From: Azospirillaceae bacterium
GTDB lineage: Bacteria > Pseudomonadota > Alphaproteobacteria > Azospirillales > Azospirillaceae
Length of the DNA: 64,000 nt
NCBI GenBank assembly: GCA_035645145.1
Contig: DASQNC010000002.1
Span: 62,001 to 126,000 of the forward strand
Direction: 5' to 3'
The notes beneath the pieces were generated by a model. It was not told the DNA's origin. It made no database searches and saw only the letters and a list, made by a program, of their open reading frames with translations. The stretch's first letter is position 1. Every line of letters starts with the position of its first letter. Shown piece by piece: positions 43,075 through 49,979 of the stretch. Position numbers and translations under genes: made by a program.

Positions 43075-43569
43075 TCAACCCACGGGCAGCGTGGCTCCCA
43101 GGACGCCGCCGTAGACCAACTGCCCCAGCAGTGTCGTCAGCGGCGTGCGCCGGCCGTAGTTGAGGCCCAGGAAGCCCGGTGGTTCCAGGCCGCGCCGGGC
43201 GATGGGCGGATCGTACTCCGATGCGATGCGCGGATGCACATGGGGCACGACCGTCAGGGAAACGAGCAGGAACAGGCCGTGCAGCGCGCCGAGGGCCGCG
43301 CCCAGCCACCAGCTCGCATGGCCCAGGCTGGCGAACATGAGGAAGTAGAGCATCGCGAAGGCCGACCCGCCCAACGTGTAGAGGACGTAGCCGAGGACCA
43401 CGGCCCGGCGGCGGTTCGCGGTCACGAAGGTCCCGAACAGGAAGGGCAGGCTCAGGCGCGAGAACCCGAGGCTCTGGCTTCCCTGAAGGATGATCGTCAT
43501 CAGCGCCGTGGCGACCAGGCTCCAAACCAGCACGGCGTCGATGTTGGCGAGCAGGCCGGCGATCAGCAC
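43075..43569 (-). CDS. Membrane protein overlapping a glycosidase gene
   Basis: The 164-aa protein has about four hydrophobic segments (DAVLVWSLVATALMTIILQG, YVLYTLGGSAFAMLYFLMFA, LGAALGALHGLFLLVSLTVV and the final LGQLVYGGVLGATL). A stretch VPHVHPRIASEY precedes a cytoplasmic or periplasmic loop. GTG start at 43569 overlaps the last seven bases of the GH15 gene, so it is translated with it. I do not recognise the family with confidence. Confidence 0.75.
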   Translation of the reverse strand: MLIAGLLANIDAVLVWSLVATALMTIILQGSQSLGFSRLSLPFLFGTFVTANRRRAVVLGYVLYTLGGSAFAMLYFLMFASLGHASWWLGAALGALHGLFLLVSLTVVPHVHPRIASEYDPPIARRGLEPPGFLGLNYGRRTPLTTLLGQLVYGGVLGATLPVG

Positions 43570-45479
43570 GGCCGGCCTCCCGGGGATCCGCAGCCGGCGG
43601 CCCTCCTCTCCGCTTGGCACAGGGCGAGGGCCGCCGACACGAGACCGGCGTGGGTGTAGGCCTGCGGGATGTTCCCCAGCGCCTCGCCGCTCGCGGGATC
43701 GAACTCCTCCGCCAGCAGCCCGACATCGTTGCCCATCGCGAGCACGCGTTGGAAAAGGCGGTGCGCCTCGTCGATCCGGCCCTGGAGCGCCAGCAGCTCG
43801 ACCGTCCAGAAGCTGCACATCCCGAACGCACCCTCGCGGGTGGGGATCCGGTCGTACCCGTCGCCGTACCGGCGCACCAGTCCCCCATCGCCGAGGTCGG
43901 ACATCAACCGCTGGAGGGTGGAGACGATCCGCGGGTCGCGGGCGTCCCGGTAGCCGAGCCGCGCCATCGTCAGCACGGCGGCATCGAGCCAACCCTCGTC
44001 CAGAACGCCGACATAGCACCGGCGCGCGGGGTCGAAGCCGCGTGTCTCGATCGCCTCCCGGATCGCATCCCGTTCGCGGCGGTACACGTCGGCCGGCACC
44101 TTGAGCCGGCCCGCCTCGTGCAGGCGCACCAGCCGGTCCAGCGCCACCCAGCACATCAGCTTGGAATGCACGTAGTGGCGGGGCGGGCCGCCGATCTCCC
44201 AAATCCCGTTGTCGGGTTCGCGCCATCGCTCGCAGACGATCCGTCCGAACTGCCGCAGCATGTTCTGCTCGGCATAGTCCAGCCTGCCACCACGCTCGGC
44301 GAACAGGAACGCGCCATCGACGACGGAGCCATAGACGTCGAGTTGGAACTGCTTGACGGCGTCGTTGCCGACGCGGACCGGCCGGGACCCCCGGTAGCCC
44401 TCCAGATGGTCCAGTTCGGCGCCCCTCACATCCGAACGCCCGAAGGCGTCGTAGAGGATGTCGAGCCGCGGCCGGGTCAGGCGGGTGGAGTGGAGCAGCC
44501 ATTCCAGGAACGCCTCCCCCTCGCCCCGATAGCCGAGGTCGAAGAACACCTGGAGCGTCGTGGACGCGTCGCGCAGCCAGCAGAAGCGGTAGTCCCAGTT
44601 CCGACCGGCGCCGATGGCTTCGGGCAGCGAGGTCGTGGCCGCCGCCATCACCGCCCCCGATTGACTGTAGGTGAGGAGCTTGAGTGCCAGCGCGCTGCGC
44701 AGGACCGCGGCCCGGTACGGGCCGTCGTAGCGGCACCGGCCACTCCAGTCCGCCCACCAGCCGACCGTCTCCGCCAGCCGCCGGCCGGCCTCTTCGAGCG
44801 GCGGCAGCACGAGGATGTCGCGGTTGGCGTAGACAAGGGACAGCACGCATTCCATACCCGCGCGGACCACCATGCATCCGCGCAGTGAGGTCCCGTTCGC
44901 AACCGGCTCCAACGCCGTGCCGCCGCGCAGGAGGAGGATTTCGCCGCGGTGTTCGCACGCCCAGCCCAGCGTGCCCCGTCGCGACAGCCGGACCGAGGCG
45001 CGTCCATAATCGGGCCGGGGCTGGAACAGGATCTCGACATCGACTTCGCCCTCCAGGCCCTCGACGATGCGCAGGATTTCGCGCTCGGGATCGAGACGGG
45101 CATCGCCCTCCACCTTCAGGCCCACGAGGTCGGTGACCCGCACCCGTCCGGAGGAGGTGGTGAAGACGGTTTCCAGGACGTTGGTCCCCTCGGTGTAACG
45201 ACGCTCGGTGGCGAAGGGAGACACCGGCCTGACCGCGAAGCGGCCGCCGCGCCGACGGTCGAGCAGGGCCGCGAACACCGAGGGGCTCGATATGTCCGGC
45301 AGGCACAGCCAGTCGATGGAGCCCTGGCGCGACACCAGCGCCACCGATCGGCAATCGCCGATGGCGGCGTAGTCGGCGATGGGAGGGTAGGCCGTCTCGT
45401 CCGAGGCCGGCCGCAGGGCGGCCCCGGCATCCCGCCGCGGCCGTTCGATCCCGCCTCTGCGGTGCACGGCATCGGCCAT
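43563..45479 (-). CDS. Glycoside hydrolase family 15 protein (glucoamylase/trehalase-like)
   Basis: The 638-aa protein matches bacterial cytosolic GH15 proteins: start YPPIADYAAIGDCRSVALVSRQGSIDWLCLP, the beta-sandwich N-terminal domain, then the (alpha/alpha)6 catalytic barrel with GRNWDYRFCWLRDAS and CSFWTVELLALQGR. No signal peptide. Activities known for this group are alpha-1,4/1,6-glucosidase and trehalase; which one cannot be told. The ATG at 45479 follows AAGGAG. Divergent from the ECF sigma operon. Confidence 0.9.
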   Translation of the reverse strand: MADAVHRRGGIERPRRDAGAALRPASDETAYPPIADYAAIGDCRSVALVSRQGSIDWLCLPDISSPSVFAALLDRRRGGRFAVRPVSPFATERRYTEGTNVLETVFTTSSGRVRVTDLVGLKVEGDARLDPEREILRIVEGLEGEVDVEILFQPRPDYGRASVRLSRRGTLGWACEHRGEILLLRGGTALEPVANGTSLRGCMVVRAGMECVLSLVYANRDILVLPPLEEAGRRLAETVGWWADWSGRCRYDGPYRAAVLRSALALKLLTYSQSGAVMAAATTSLPEAIGAGRNWDYRFCWLRDASTTLQVFFDLGYRGEGEAFLEWLLHSTRLTRPRLDILYDAFGRSDVRGAELDHLEGYRGSRPVRVGNDAVKQFQLDVYGSVVDGAFLFAERGGRLDYAEQNMLRQFGRIVCERWREPDNGIWEIGGPPRHYVHSKLMCWVALDRLVRLHEAGRLKVPADVYRRERDAIREAIETRGFDPARRCYVGVLDEGWLDAAVLTMARLGYRDARDPRIVSTLQRLMSDLGDGGLVRRYGDGYDRIPTREGAFGMCSFWTVELLALQGRIDEAHRLFQRVLAMGNDVGLLAEEFDPASGEALGNIPQAYTHAGLVSAALALCQAERRAAGCGSPGGRPC

Positions 45480-45578: not shown

Positions 45579-45606
45579 GGAACCGCGGTCGGGATCCGCA
45601 CGTCCG
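45579..45606 (+). promoter_or_regulatory. Candidate ECF-type promoter
   Basis: GGAACC (45579-45584), 16-bp spacer, CGTCCG (45601-45606), about 100 bp before the sigma gene. GGAAC/CGTC elements are typical for ECF sigma factors that drive their own gene. A second GGAAC at 45523 lacks a good -10. Confidence 0.42.
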
Positions 45607-45705
45607 GACCGAGCGGGATCATCCCTACGACGGAAAGGCGACCCCGTCCGTGCGGGAACCCCGCCCCCCGGCCAGCGCATCAAACCCCCGAAGACGGAGG
45701 GGCGC

Positions 45706-46419
45706 ATGGACCCGATGGGCGTGATCCGACAGTCCGCAACCGCAGCCGATGGGGATCTCGTTGCGCGTCTCCGCAACGGGGAGGCCGATGCGTTCCGCAC
45801 CCTCATGCAGCGGCACAACCAGCGCCTCTTCCGATTGGCGCGGGGCATCCTGCGGGACTCCGCCGATGCCGAAGACGCGCTCCAGGATGCCTACGTCCTC
45901 GCCTTCACCCGCATGGACCAGTTCCGTGCGGACTCCAGCCTGGCGACCTGGCTCGGGCGCATCGTCATCAACGAGGCGCTCCGGCGGCTCCGGCAAAGGA
46001 TGCCCATGGTGGACCGCGACGGCGATGGATCCACCGGCAGGGGACGGGAGGGCCAGGTGGTCCCCTTGTTCCCGGCCCAGCAGCCGCCCGCCACGCCGGA
46101 AGAGGATGCGGCACGTGCCGAGATCCGGCGCGTGCTGGTGCGTGCGATCGACGGTCTGCCCGACAAGTTCCGGCTGGTCTTCATCCTACGCGAGGTCGAG
46201 CAGATGAGCATCCGGGAGGCCGCTTCGGTCCTTGGCATCCCCGAGGACACCGTCAAAACGCGCCTGCACCGGGCCCGCCGCATGCTCGGCCGCAGCCTCC
46301 GCCGGCAACTTTCGTCGGACCTGCCCGGCATGTTCCCGTTCGCCGGCGCGCGTTGTGCGCGTGTGGTTTCGCATGTGATGGGGCGCCTGGGGGCGCAGGG
46401 GGCATCGGCCGGTGACTAG
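45706..46419 (+). CDS. ECF-type RNA polymerase sigma factor
   Basis: The 237-aa protein has sigma region 2 (FRTLMQRHNQRLFRLARGILRD, DAEDALQDAYVLAFTRMDQFR, about 30-95) and region 4 (LPDKFRLVFILREVEQMSIREAASVLGIPEDTVKTRLHRARRML, about 151-194), with a Pro-rich linker and a C-terminal tail of 40 residues holding a Cys (GARCARVVSHVMGRLG). ATG at 45706 follows GGAGGGG. No anti-sigma gene is adjacent, so control may be through its tail or an unlinked protein. It leads a three-gene run with a TTHB210-like protein and a cupredoxin. Confidence 0.9.
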   Translation: MDPMGVIRQSATAADGDLVARLRNGEADAFRTLMQRHNQRLFRLARGILRDSADAEDALQDAYVLAFTRMDQFRADSSLATWLGRIVINEALRRLRQRMPMVDRDGDGSTGRGREGQVVPLFPAQQPPATPEEDAARAEIRRVLVRAIDGLPDKFRLVFILREVEQMSIREAASVLGIPEDTVKTRLHRARRMLGRSLRRQLSSDLPGMFPFAGARCARVVSHVMGRLGAQGASAGD

Positions 46420-46463
46420 GTTGGCCACCTCCAGGGATCGATCCATTGACGAGGGAGGGAACC

Positions 46464-46892
46464 ATGACGATCCGCACAATCCTGGCCACGGGCCTGATCG
46501 CCGGCGCATTTGTCCTGGCGGATGTTCCCGCGCAGGCCCAATCCATGGAACAGGCGCCGCCCGGCGGGGCGTACCGGAAGGTCAGCGAGCTTGTCAGGCT
46601 GCCGGACTTCCTTCCGGGGCTCGGCACGCTCTACGTCGATCCCGGAACGCTGCCGGCCGGACCCTTCCTCGCCTATGACCGCGACGGCCGGCTGGTCAGC
46701 ACGATCTACATGGTGCCGCTCGAGGACATCCAGGCGCAGAAGAGGTTCGACAACCTCACGTCGGCCGGAGCCAACGTCGACCACGTCGACATGTATTTCA
46801 ACGCCGGCCATCCGGGGGTGGAAAAACCCCACTACCACATCGTGCTTTGGCATGTGACCCAGGCGGACGAGGCCCGCGTTGCCAGCCGGTAG
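46464..46892 (+). CDS. Exported TTHB210-like (DUF5602-type) protein
   Basis: The 142-aa protein has a clear signal peptide (MTIRTILATGLIAGAFVLADVPAQAQS). The mature part contains a proline/glycine-rich LPGLGTLYVDPGTLPAGPFL and the histidine-rich VDHVDMYFNAGHPGVEKPHYHIVLWHV, which suggests metal binding. This pattern resembles TTHB210 of Thermus thermophilus, itself under an ECF sigma factor; I recognise that by pattern only. Strong site GGAGGGA before the ATG at 46464. Its end overlaps the next gene by 14 bases. Confidence 0.7.
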   Translation: MTIRTILATGLIAGAFVLADVPAQAQSMEQAPPGGAYRKVSELVRLPDFLPGLGTLYVDPGTLPAGPFLAYDRDGRLVSTIYMVPLEDIQAQKRFDNLTSAGANVDHVDMYFNAGHPGVEKPHYHIVLWHVTQADEARVASR

Positions 46893-47409
46893 CGTTATCG
46901 GGCGGCGCTCGGTGCTGTGGGCCGGCGGCTGTGCCGCCGGCCTCGCGCCGTTCGGCATGCCCTTGCCCTCGGTGGCCGCTCCGGTGGTCGAGATCCGCAT
47001 GCGCGGCAACGCCGACGGCTCGAAGGTCTGGTACGACCCGGTCGGGGTGCTGATCGAGCCGGGGCAGATCTTGCGCTGGATCAACGCGGATCCCGGCAAC
47101 GCGCACACCTGCACCGCCTACCATCCGCGGAACAACGGGCATCCGCTGCGTATCCCGGACGGGGCGGAGCCGTGGGATTCCGACTATCTGCTGCCCGGCG
47201 GGACATTCGAGCTGCGGCTCTCGGTCCCCGGCGTCTACGACTATTTCTGCATTCCGCACGAGGAAGCGGGCATGGCGGGACGCATCGTCGTCGGCCGGCC
47301 GGCCGGGCGCGCGGAGGTGTCCGCGGACACCCTGCCGGAGCCGGCCCGCCGGGTTGTCCCGCCGGTCGCCGAAATCGTCCGGCGCGGTGCGGTCGGGGGC
47401 GTCCCCTGA
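46879..47409 (+). CDS. Tat-exported cupredoxin-like copper protein
   Basis: The 176-aa product has a twin-arginine leader (IGRRSVLWAGGCAAG to PLPSVAA), followed by a plastocyanin/azurin-like domain. Type 1 copper ligands are visible: His76 or His82 in AHTCTAYH, Cys124, His127 and Met132 in FCIPHEEAGM. It is expected to carry an electron or copper in the periplasm. The TTG start at 46879 overlaps the previous gene by 14 bases. Being third in an ECF operon suggests an oxidative or copper stress role (inference). Confidence 0.83.
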   Translation: MPAGSVIGRRSVLWAGGCAAGLAPFGMPLPSVAAPVVEIRMRGNADGSKVWYDPVGVLIEPGQILRWINADPGNAHTCTAYHPRNNGHPLRIPDGAEPWDSDYLLPGGTFELRLSVPGVYDYFCIPHEEAGMAGRIVVGRPAGRAEVSADTLPEPARRVVPPVAEIVRRGAVGGVP

Positions 47410-47431: not shown

Positions 47432-47977
47432 TCACCGTCCCGGCTTCCGGTGCTCCTGAAGGCGGGGCATCAGTTCGACGAAGTTGCAGGGCCGGTGGCG
47501 GTTGTCCAACTGGTCCTTGAGGATCAGGTCCCAACCGTCGCGCACGGCGCTGGTGCTGCCGGGCAGGGCGAACAGGTAGGTGCCGCCCGCCACCCCGGCG
47601 GTCGCCCGGCTCTGGATCGTCGACGTCCCGATCTTCTGGTAGCTGAGCCAGCGGAACAGCTCGCCGAAGCCGGGGATGTCCTTTTCGCAGACCTCGGCGA
47701 AGGCTTCCGGCGTGACGTCGCGGCCGGTCACCCCGGTGCCGCCGGTGGTGATCACCGCATCCACCTCCGGGTCGGCGATCCAGGCGCGCAGCCGGGCCGC
47801 GATGGCGGCGACATCGTCCTTGACGATCGCGCGGTCGGCCACCGTGTGGCCCGCCGCCCCGATCCGCTCCACCAGCGCATTGCCGGACGTGTCGGTGTCC
47901 GGCGTGCGCGTGTCGGAGACCGTCAGGACCGCGATGCGGACCGGAATGAAGGGGCGGGTTTCGTCAATTCGTCCCAT
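47432..47977 (-). CDS. moaB: Molybdenum cofactor biosynthesis protein MoaB/MogA-like
   Basis: The 181-aa protein has the molybdopterin-binding fold: [39 protein letters not shown] and [17 protein letters not shown]. MogA-type proteins adenylate molybdopterin; MoaB is the related form, and the length with the DETRPFIP start favours MoaB. The ATG at 47977 overlaps the transglycosylase stop by 14 bases. Confidence 0.9.
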
Positions 47978-49979
47978 CCTCGGACATCCCATTGGAGTCT
48001 GGGCCGTTGGGGCTTGGGCCGCTGGGGCTTGGGCCGCCGCCGTAGTCCGCCATTTCGGCGGCTTCGGCCGGCACGAACTGCGGCCATTGGCCGGCCGCCA
48101 GCGCATCCAGCGTGGGCGTCTCCTGGCCCAGGCGCAAGCGGTAGATCCAGAAGTTGGCGAGCACCCGTTCCACGAACGTCCGCGTCTCGCGCGCCGGCAG
48201 GGTCTCGATGAACAGCAGCGGATCGCTTTCCGCCCGCATCGTCTTGCGCCAGCGGCTCAGGTTGCCGGGACCCGCGTTGTAGGCTGCCAGCATGGCCAGC
48301 AGATTGTTGCCGATCTCCGGATGTCCGCCGAGCTGCGCCAGATAGCGCTGGCCCAGGCTGACGTTCAGGCCGGGTTCGAACAGGTGCTCGCCCGTGGCGT
48401 TCGGGCGGTGCACCGGAGGCAGGCCCTGGAGGGCGCCGGCGGTGGCCGGCATCAGCTGCATCAGGCCCGAGGCGCCGGCATGGCTGCGCGCCCGCGGATC
48501 GAACCGCGATTCCTGGCGCATCAGGGCGAACACCAGGGCCTTGTCGATGGCGAACCCCTCGGGCGGGGTCCAGGGCGGCACGGGATAGAGGGCCGCGTCC
48601 CAGGTGGAGCCTTCGGGCGTTGCGATGGCGTTGCCCAGCCTCAGCGCCAGCATCGGCATCTGCGCCCGGACCGAGATCGCCAGCAGCGACTGCTCGAGCA
48701 GCGGCTCGCCCTGCGGGTTGATGCGGCGCAGCTCGGCCTCCGCCAGTTCGCGTTGCCCGGCCTGCAGCAGGCCGATGGCGCGGCGTCCGGCCGGCGTGGC
48801 GTCCAGCTTGGCGAGGTGCGCGGCCGTCAGCTCGGGCACCTCCCACTTGAATTCGGCGTCGATGCCCAGAAGGCGGCCGGCGATCAGACCGTAGAAGGTG
48901 CGCGGGTATTCGGCCGCGCGCGCCAGCCACTTCGACACTTCGTGCGGGCGGCCGGCACGGGTGTGGGCGCGCGCCGCCCAGAATGCACCCGCCGACACGT
49001 CCCAGGCGGACACGCCGTTGCCGCGCACGACCGCCTCGAAGAAGCGGGCGGAGCGGTCGACCTGACCGGTGCGCCAAGCCGACAGGCCGGCGATCCAATT
49101 GGCCAGCGGGATCGACGCGCCGGTGCGGCCCGCGACCTCGGCGGCCACGCGCAGCGCCTCGCGGGGGTGGCCGGCATAGAACAGCTCCGCCGCCGCATCG
49201 GCCCGCGCCATGTCCAGGGTCTGCGGATCAAGGTCCTGGGCCGCCCCGTCGCTGTCCAGCAGCGAAACGGCCTCTTCCAGTTCGCCCGCCTTCAACAGAC
49301 GGTCCACCCGCTCCAGCAGGGCCGTGCCGGCGGCCGACCGTTCGGCCCGGGCGCGCGGCTTCACGTCCAGCGGACGCTGGTTGTCGTAGCTTTCCAGATT
49401 GCCGCCGCCCAGACCGCCCGTTTCGGCGGGCGCCTTGGGCGGCCGTTCGCCGCGCGGCTGCCGCCGGACGGCCAGACGGTACACCTGGTCGGCGTTGGGA
49501 TGGTCGGCATACCGGTCCAGCCACGCGCGGAGTTCCGGGAAGCCGGCGCGGTACGAGGGGTGCATCAGGCGCTGATAGAGCACATGGCCCATCAGGCGCT
49601 GGTCCTGGATGCGCGCGAGTTCGCGGTCGGCCCTGTCCCAGTCCGCTTCGGATTGCAATTCGAACACCCGGCGGTAGCGGCGGGCGTCGGCCGGCGGCAT
49701 CTGGTGGTCCTGCGCCTGCACCTCGTCCGTCAGCAGCACCGGGTCCGTCAGGGACCAGGGGCGCAGCGCCTCGGGCGCGGGCTTGGCCATCGCGGATGGC
49801 TGCGGTTGCGTAACCGCAGCAACCTGGACGGTTGCCGGCGCGGCGGGATTCGGCTCGTCGGCCTTGGCCCGTATCTCGCCGGTTGGATCGCCAGAGGCGA
49901 GCACCAGCAATGACGCGCCTAAGAGGAGGGTCGTTCGCAGATACCGCGAGGTACCCACGTTCCAGCTCATCCTATGCAT
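47964..49979 (-). CDS. Soluble lytic murein transglycosylase
   Basis: The 671-aa Slt-type enzyme has a signal sequence ([20 protein letters not shown]), a long superhelical middle that resembles the U domain, and a C-terminal SLT domain whose catalytic Glu is in [20 protein letters not shown] (about residue 490), followed by LMQLMPATA and [15 protein letters not shown]. It cuts the MurNAc-GlcNAc bond to make 1,6-anhydro ends. The start could also be the ATG three codons in. It reads into moaB with an overlap. Confidence 0.92.

Follow-up and report, generated by a model that had tools for sequence, protein, structure and literature searches.

Genes and features of the operon

The window, which denotes the whole stretch of 64,000 nucleotides that was analysed, carries three consecutive genes on its forward strand. 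The first of these (45706-46419) encodes an ECF sigma factor of the NF008888 class and ECF29/RpoE8 type, which matches the Pfam families Sigma70_r2 and Sigma70_r4_2 and has an NCBIfam NF008888 score of 275 bits (cut-off 204). It is the sole match above this cut-off in its own 3.89-Mb genome. Beyond about residue 205 the protein has a C-terminal extension with the stretch FPFAGARC...L (residues 210-228; 46333-46389, forward strand). An earlier note on this DNA had described a sigma factor with a cysteine-bearing tail, and Cys-217 (codon 46354-46356) of this tail is in fact the single cysteine residue of the whole protein. An AlphaFold2 model showed a two-domain ECF sigma factor with one extra helix (residues 215-228, pLDDT about 78-91) and the cysteine close to the helix start; the Foldseek matches of the model were ordinary ECF sigma factors.

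The second gene (46464-46892, forward strand) encodes a TTHB210-like protein with a score of 29.6 bits against PF18197 (gathering cut-off 26.6) and an N-terminal export signal identified by eye. Profile comparison with the solved Thermus protein 3vg8 gave an E-value of 9e-45, and the model of the window protein matched the 3vg8 fold with a VIA Z of 12.1 and an rmsd of 3.3 over 97 positions. Among the matches listed in the fold search 3vg8 alone was well above background, which does not show that the fold is new. The protein has a histidine motif, H116-PGV..PHxH125 (46809-46838, forward strand), whose residues His-116, His-123, and His-125 do not vary across the 12 rows of alignment A1 or the 34 rows of A4, and which probably binds metal. 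A role of the TTHB210-like protein as anti-sigma factor was considered and rejected, because its signal peptide should keep it from meeting a cytoplasmic sigma factor. A second PF18197 match, below the cut-off at 22.7 bits, lies on another contig of the same genome (L134; G000:C16:150989-151114).

The third gene (46879-47409, forward strand) starts with TTG and encodes a plastocyanin-like cupredoxin (PF00127, 34.0 bits, cut-off 21.2), in which inspection by eye showed a C-x2-H-x4-M site of the plastocyanin type and a twin-arginine start. The predicted type 1 copper ligands His-76, Cys-124, His-127, and Met-132 are kept in 80-81 of 82 aligned rows, the remainder being gaps. Both exported products agree with the earlier reading of an exported TTHB210-like protein followed by a Tat-exported type 1 copper protein, and the 14-base overlap reported between their genes stands provided that translation begins at the TTG at 46879. 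No terminator was found after the cupredoxin gene, the two predicted sites both lying inside genes, and no sigma-70 type promoter was found in the operon region. The flanking genes on the opposite strand encode, by reading, a glucoamylase-like protein (GH15-type, 43563-45479) and a MoaB-like protein (47432-48106).

Conservation of the three genes

Relatives were collected by scanning genome contigs with an alignment of TTHB210-like proteins; 259 were confirmed, and the best 80 of these 259 were used for all locus counts. Clustering of the ORFs in these 80 loci placed the TTHB210-like protein under 29 genus-level labels, the cupredoxin under 27, and the sigma factor under 26, with the next gene families (DUF488-like and dehydrogenase, named by reading) under 8. 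No anti-sigma family was found among the recurring neighbours in these loci. The cupredoxin gene lay downstream on the same strand in all 75 loci in which it was placed. A sigma gene was present in 59 of the 80 loci: in 52 it followed the exported pair and shared its strand, in 6 it preceded the pair, and in 1 it lay on the opposite strand. The widest separation of cupredoxin and sigma genes, about 2.5 kb, occurred in Microvirga loci. Judged by sequence comparison, the three genes are a real, conserved operon-like unit that lacks a conserved linked anti-sigma gene, and both points had been anticipated in the earlier note. The unit is sporadic rather than core, because a TTHB210-like match was present in 4 of 385 genomes of the class, the organism's own included and one of them borderline.

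The remaining 21 of the best 80 loci had no sigma gene within the stretch covered, some stretches being short. Fifteen of the 80 had the exported pair with neither a sigma gene nor the promoter motif nearby, and the pair can thus presumably work under other control. The separation of the three genes in relatives, which had been named beforehand as evidence against the unit, was accordingly found in part. In the Mesorhizobium loci L016, L054, L056, L058, L059, L077, and L081, which lack linked sigma and motif, a conserved stretch like TTCGTTTGACGA lies instead no more than about 160 bases upstream of the TTHB210-like gene and is perhaps the site of another regulator. Genes for a truncated haemoglobin, Rrf2, and LysR lie nearby in L016. 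On plasmids of Roseibium and Thioclava (L019:7301-12010 and L021:7697-12357) the TTHB210-like gene adjoins a cbb3 oxidase cluster and a gene for a hexameric tyrosine-coordinated heme protein; on the Thioclava plasmid the cupredoxin is matched in part only, and the region is flanked by IS6 transposase genes.

A predicted ECF29-type promoter

Comparison with other loci suggested a promoter upstream of the sigma gene that consists of GGGAAC (45654-45659, forward strand), a 17-base spacer, and GCATCAAA (45677-45684). The operons of relatives are preceded by GGGAACCTTT...CATCCAA, with a spacer of 15 bases in most of them and 16 in Azospirillum. The motif usually stands before the sigma gene if this comes first and before the TTHB210-like gene if that comes first. 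A different promoter, GGAACC-N16-CGTC at 45579, had been proposed earlier, but a count over the 3.89-Mb genome gave 62 matches to GGAACC-N15-17-CGTC and 61 to its backwards control, and the proposal was abandoned. The pattern GGGAACN{15,17}GCATCNAA has one match in the same genome, at the window operon (control 0), and one match each in genomes G017 and G413, at their respective operons (controls 0). Genome G395 has a TTHB210-like gene but no match to this pattern.

Among the best 80 of 259 loci, the motif was found in 54 of the 59 with a sigma gene versus 6 of the 21 without (Fisher p 8e-8, a value that ignores kinship among loci). The same stretches held 71 motif sites versus 0 sites of the backwards pattern, and 22 motif sites were found elsewhere in 2.66 Mb, counting both strands. 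The prediction that motif loci without a linked sigma gene would have one elsewhere did not discriminate, as this was the case in 4 of 5 genomes with the motif versus 11 of 14 without it. A close pattern applied to 39 genomes gave 48 sites (backwards control 4), of which 32 immediately precede a TTHB210-like gene, another 3 fall within those loci, and 13 lie elsewhere. Six of these 13 sites were inspected for the genes that follow them: GTP cyclohydrolase I in L120, DUF4142 paired with a cupredoxin in L126, a product that matches cytochrome c in L123, one with only a PEP-CTERM match below the cut-off in L121, a membrane protein-like ORF named by reading in L122, and no clear gene in L125. One of the three additional same-locus sites (L124) lies upstream of an ORF with a Glyco_hydro_1 match. 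An ORF with a membrane-like N terminus under its own ECF29-type motif was observed in Microvirga at L124:1345-3144 and L122:294-2117; at L124 this motif is located between the cupredoxin and sigma genes.

Comparison with known systems

The window sigma factor is 42% identical to RpoE8 of Sinorhizobium meliloti over 213 positions (E 2e-55) and has the same cysteine tail, and both proteins fall inside the sigma tree, above the outgroup. According to a 2018 study, rpoE8 (ECF29) is accompanied by SMb20593 and by amcY, a blue copper gene, the RpoE8 promoter is GGGAAC/GCATCCAA, no anti-sigma factor is known, and the authors call the regulation of RpoE8/ECF29 a mystery (PMC6180224). The same study reports that RpoE8 overexpression in S. 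meliloti revealed no targets, despite the motif before the partner gene, and that amcY was up in nodules of an rpoE8-SMb20593 deletion strain (PMC6180224). The two systems have in common an exported partner, a blue copper protein, the lack of a known anti-sigma factor, and the GGGAAC..GCATCCAA motif, from which the window -10 element GCATCAAA is one base off. They differ in the spacer (15 bases in S. meliloti, 17 in the window) and in that S. meliloti has a second motif, located upstream of the partner gene. Strain Ak57 of S. meliloti has the motif upstream of SMb20593 letter for letter and that of rpoE8 with one base changed; the partner is annotated as DUF4142, not as TTHB210-like, and the cupredoxin is shorter. 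The earlier statement that no named system has this composition therefore has to be narrowed, since the rpoE8-SMb20593-amcY set is published, although with a DUF4142 protein in place of the TTHB210-like one. Kinship to RpoE8, the predicted promoter, the lack of a linked anti-sigma gene, and the C-terminal extension all mark the window sigma factor as one of the ECF29 type, a group that appears among those listed with regulatory extensions in a table of PMC8999054.

In Thermus thermophilus HB8, too, the TTHB210 gene (3vg8) has an ECF sigma gene next to it, a parallel to which attention had been drawn before. Its neighbours there are a sigma gene paired with an anti-sigma gene and, past these, a Ferritin_2 gene. 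Going by the title of a structure paper, TTHB210 is reportedly controlled by SigE. Unlike the window, the Thermus locus has another type of sigma factor without the tail, an adjacent anti-sigma gene, and no cupredoxin. No paper on TTHB210 or DUF5602 was found in the literature searched, which covers few of the subscription journals.

Several other assignments were rejected. A classical ECF sigma/anti-sigma pair does not fit, as no anti-sigma gene is adjacent. The sulfite response of S. meliloti RpoE1/RpoE4 (ECF26) likewise has an ECF sigma factor that controls an exported cupredoxin together with an electron-transfer enzyme, but it employs sulfite oxidase, and its different promoter and linked membrane anti-sigma factors EcfR1/EcfR4 rule it out as the identity of the window system. 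CorE and CorE2 of Myxococcus xanthus (ECF44/ECF238) resemble the window sigma factor in having cysteine in a C-terminal extension and no anti-sigma factor, but CorE requires a cysteine-rich domain and, in its linker, a CxC motif (PMC8999054). The window sigma factor, with one cysteine residue in the whole protein, does not fit this type of copper-sensing ECF. The RpoE8 of Azospirillum brasilense apparently shares the name only; its operon contains a heavy-metal sensor gene (PMC12826043), and it was left out of the evidence.

Exchange of exported cassettes

A class-wide sample of 385 genomes contained 11 with a sigma factor above the NF008888 cut-off. The neighbours of these 11 sigma genes, out to about 1.5 kb, were of four kinds: 2 of the genes (one being that of the window) had a TTHB210-like protein and a cupredoxin beside them, 3 had DUF4142 and a small cupredoxin, 5 had a ferritin-like protein together with a c-type cytochrome, and 1 had GTP cyclohydrolase I. 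Eight of the 10 ferritin-like and cytochrome proteins were confirmed by Pfam, and the ferritin-like protein of L143 and the cytochrome of L144 were identified by eye. The strict motif was found in none of the 5 Ferritin_2-cytochrome c operons; by eye, a GGGAACCTTT-type -35 element lies near the sigma start in L139, L140, and L142, and weaker -35 forms in the remaining two.

A careful tree was built from 47 hand-picked sigma factors, including 31 of the 59 TTHB210-linked ones and that of the window, and leaving out L018 and the Thermus sigma factor, both of which were in an earlier quick tree. The TTHB210-cupredoxin label changed 7 times on the 47-sigma tree, at least 5 of the changes being forced by well-supported branches, and a single clade of all TTHB210-linked sigma factors was rejected (p-AU 4.6e-5). 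The set of DUF4142, cupredoxin, and sigma factor also occurs at plasmid loci of Rhizobium, Mesorhizobium, and Caballeronia, and a DUF4142-cupredoxin pair lies under an ECF29-type motif in Microvirga rosea. In Mesorhizobium genomes that have the TTHB210-like pair without sigma gene and motif, the sigma factor is mostly found elsewhere together with DUF4142 and a small cupredoxin. No title describes this set among the literature matches listed, most subscription journals being outside the collection.

On this comparative evidence, the sigma type has repeatedly exchanged cassettes of TTHB210-like protein with cupredoxin, DUF4142 with small cupredoxin, and Ferritin_2 with cytochrome c. The position of an ECF29/RpoE8 sigma gene beside a blue copper gene, the shared motif, and the lack of a known anti-sigma factor were known before; the TTHB210-like protein in place of DUF4142 and the evidence for repeated cassette exchange are new. 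A side observation concerns folE, the GTP cyclohydrolase I gene, which recurs beside ECF29-type sigma genes or behind an ECF29-type motif (L105:3222-3906, L120:2166-3044, L135:783-1443, and also L019, L151, L160, L161, and L162).

Possible role of the tail and control of the sigma factor

The tail Cys-217 is invariant in 55 of 55 aligned sigma factors and is kept in all 11 above the NF008888 cut-off in the 385-genome sample, while two weaker matches under the cut-off lack the tail. A single cysteine rules out an internal disulphide and a metal site of the CorE kind, but it could enter a mixed disulphide, be oxidised to a sulphenic acid, or contact a partner. A copper-specific response, in which the tail would bind copper as in CorE and the operon would buffer or oxidise periplasmic copper, could account for the copper protein encoded in the operon, and an ECF sigma factor that has a cysteine-bearing tail and responds to copper is described in PMC8999054. 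But the window sigma factor and 22 of the 59 TTHB210-linked ones from the best 80 of 259 relatives have just one cysteine residue, short of the cysteine-rich domain and CxC motif of CorE, and the same tail is present in sister sigma factors beside Ferritin_2 and cytochrome c. We consider this explanation improbable, and the presence of the tail beside Ferritin_2 and cytochrome c makes the earlier suggestion of a copper response with the tail as sensor less convincing. Because the same tail accompanies copper-free cassettes, a switch that works through thiol/redox chemistry or protein binding is more probable than a sensor specific for copper.

A stronger competitor, though still an unlikely one, is that the tail is structural and that the sigma factor is controlled by an unlinked anti-sigma factor or solely through its transcription by another regulator. 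It draws on the S. meliloti overexpression result, in which RpoE8 was inactive as if restrained by something (PMC6180224), and on a published table in PMC12542648, according to which PhaR binds upstream of S. meliloti rpoE8. However, the triad has no further conserved neighbour in the best 80 of 259 loci, and PhaR-like sites precede the operon in 7 of these 80 loci versus 5.7 expected from shuffles; PhaR input was rejected on this count. Finally, the three genes might be neighbours without functional link, as several Mesorhizobium and Sinorhizobium relatives have the exported pair without sigma gene and motif. This is hardly credible in view of the recurrence under 26 genus-level labels, in two gene orders and mostly with short gaps, among the best 80 of 259 loci, and of a common motif that moves with the first gene.

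Proposed mechanism and implications

The reading that we prefer, by a small margin over even chances, is a self-contained, autoregulated ECF29 (RpoE8) operon that encodes an exported redox pair and is governed by a sigma factor under control of its own tail. The sigma factor with RNA polymerase would transcribe its own operon from GGGAAC-N17-GCATCAAA (45654-45684), which in this genome is probably the one strong target that it has, and would thereby yield more sigma factor and the two exported proteins. The Tat-exported type 1 copper protein is expected to pass single electrons, and together with the TTHB210-like protein it may form a small periplasmic electron-transfer unit, which would remove an oxidant or keep metal centres in the right redox state. 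DUF4142 with a small cupredoxin or Ferritin_2 with cytochrome c would play the same role beside the sister sigma factors. The short C-terminal extension presumably holds sigma activity in check, its invariant cysteine reacting to thiol/redox stress or meeting an unlinked partner. The S. meliloti results on RpoE8 overexpression and on amcY in nodules count against so simple a picture, as do the window's longer spacer and the 15 of the best 80 of 259 loci whose exported pair has neither sigma gene nor motif nearby. The operon is most likely an autoregulated, near single-operon response for periplasmic electron transfer or against oxidants.

With one sigma factor, one predicted genomic promoter, two exported proteins, and one invariant tail cysteine, the locus is a compact test case. 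The cassette exchange ties uncharacterised exported families (TTHB210-like, DUF4142, and ferritin-like) to one likely common task, which can be tested by swapping cassettes. More tentatively, and at rather less than even chances, ECF29 as a whole may be a family of switches that dispense with anti-sigma factors, sense thiol/redox state through a one-cysteine tail, and drive their own operons with repeatedly swapped periplasmic cassettes of a catalyst and an electron carrier, sometimes together with GTP cyclohydrolase I. If so, different catalyst families would do the same job.
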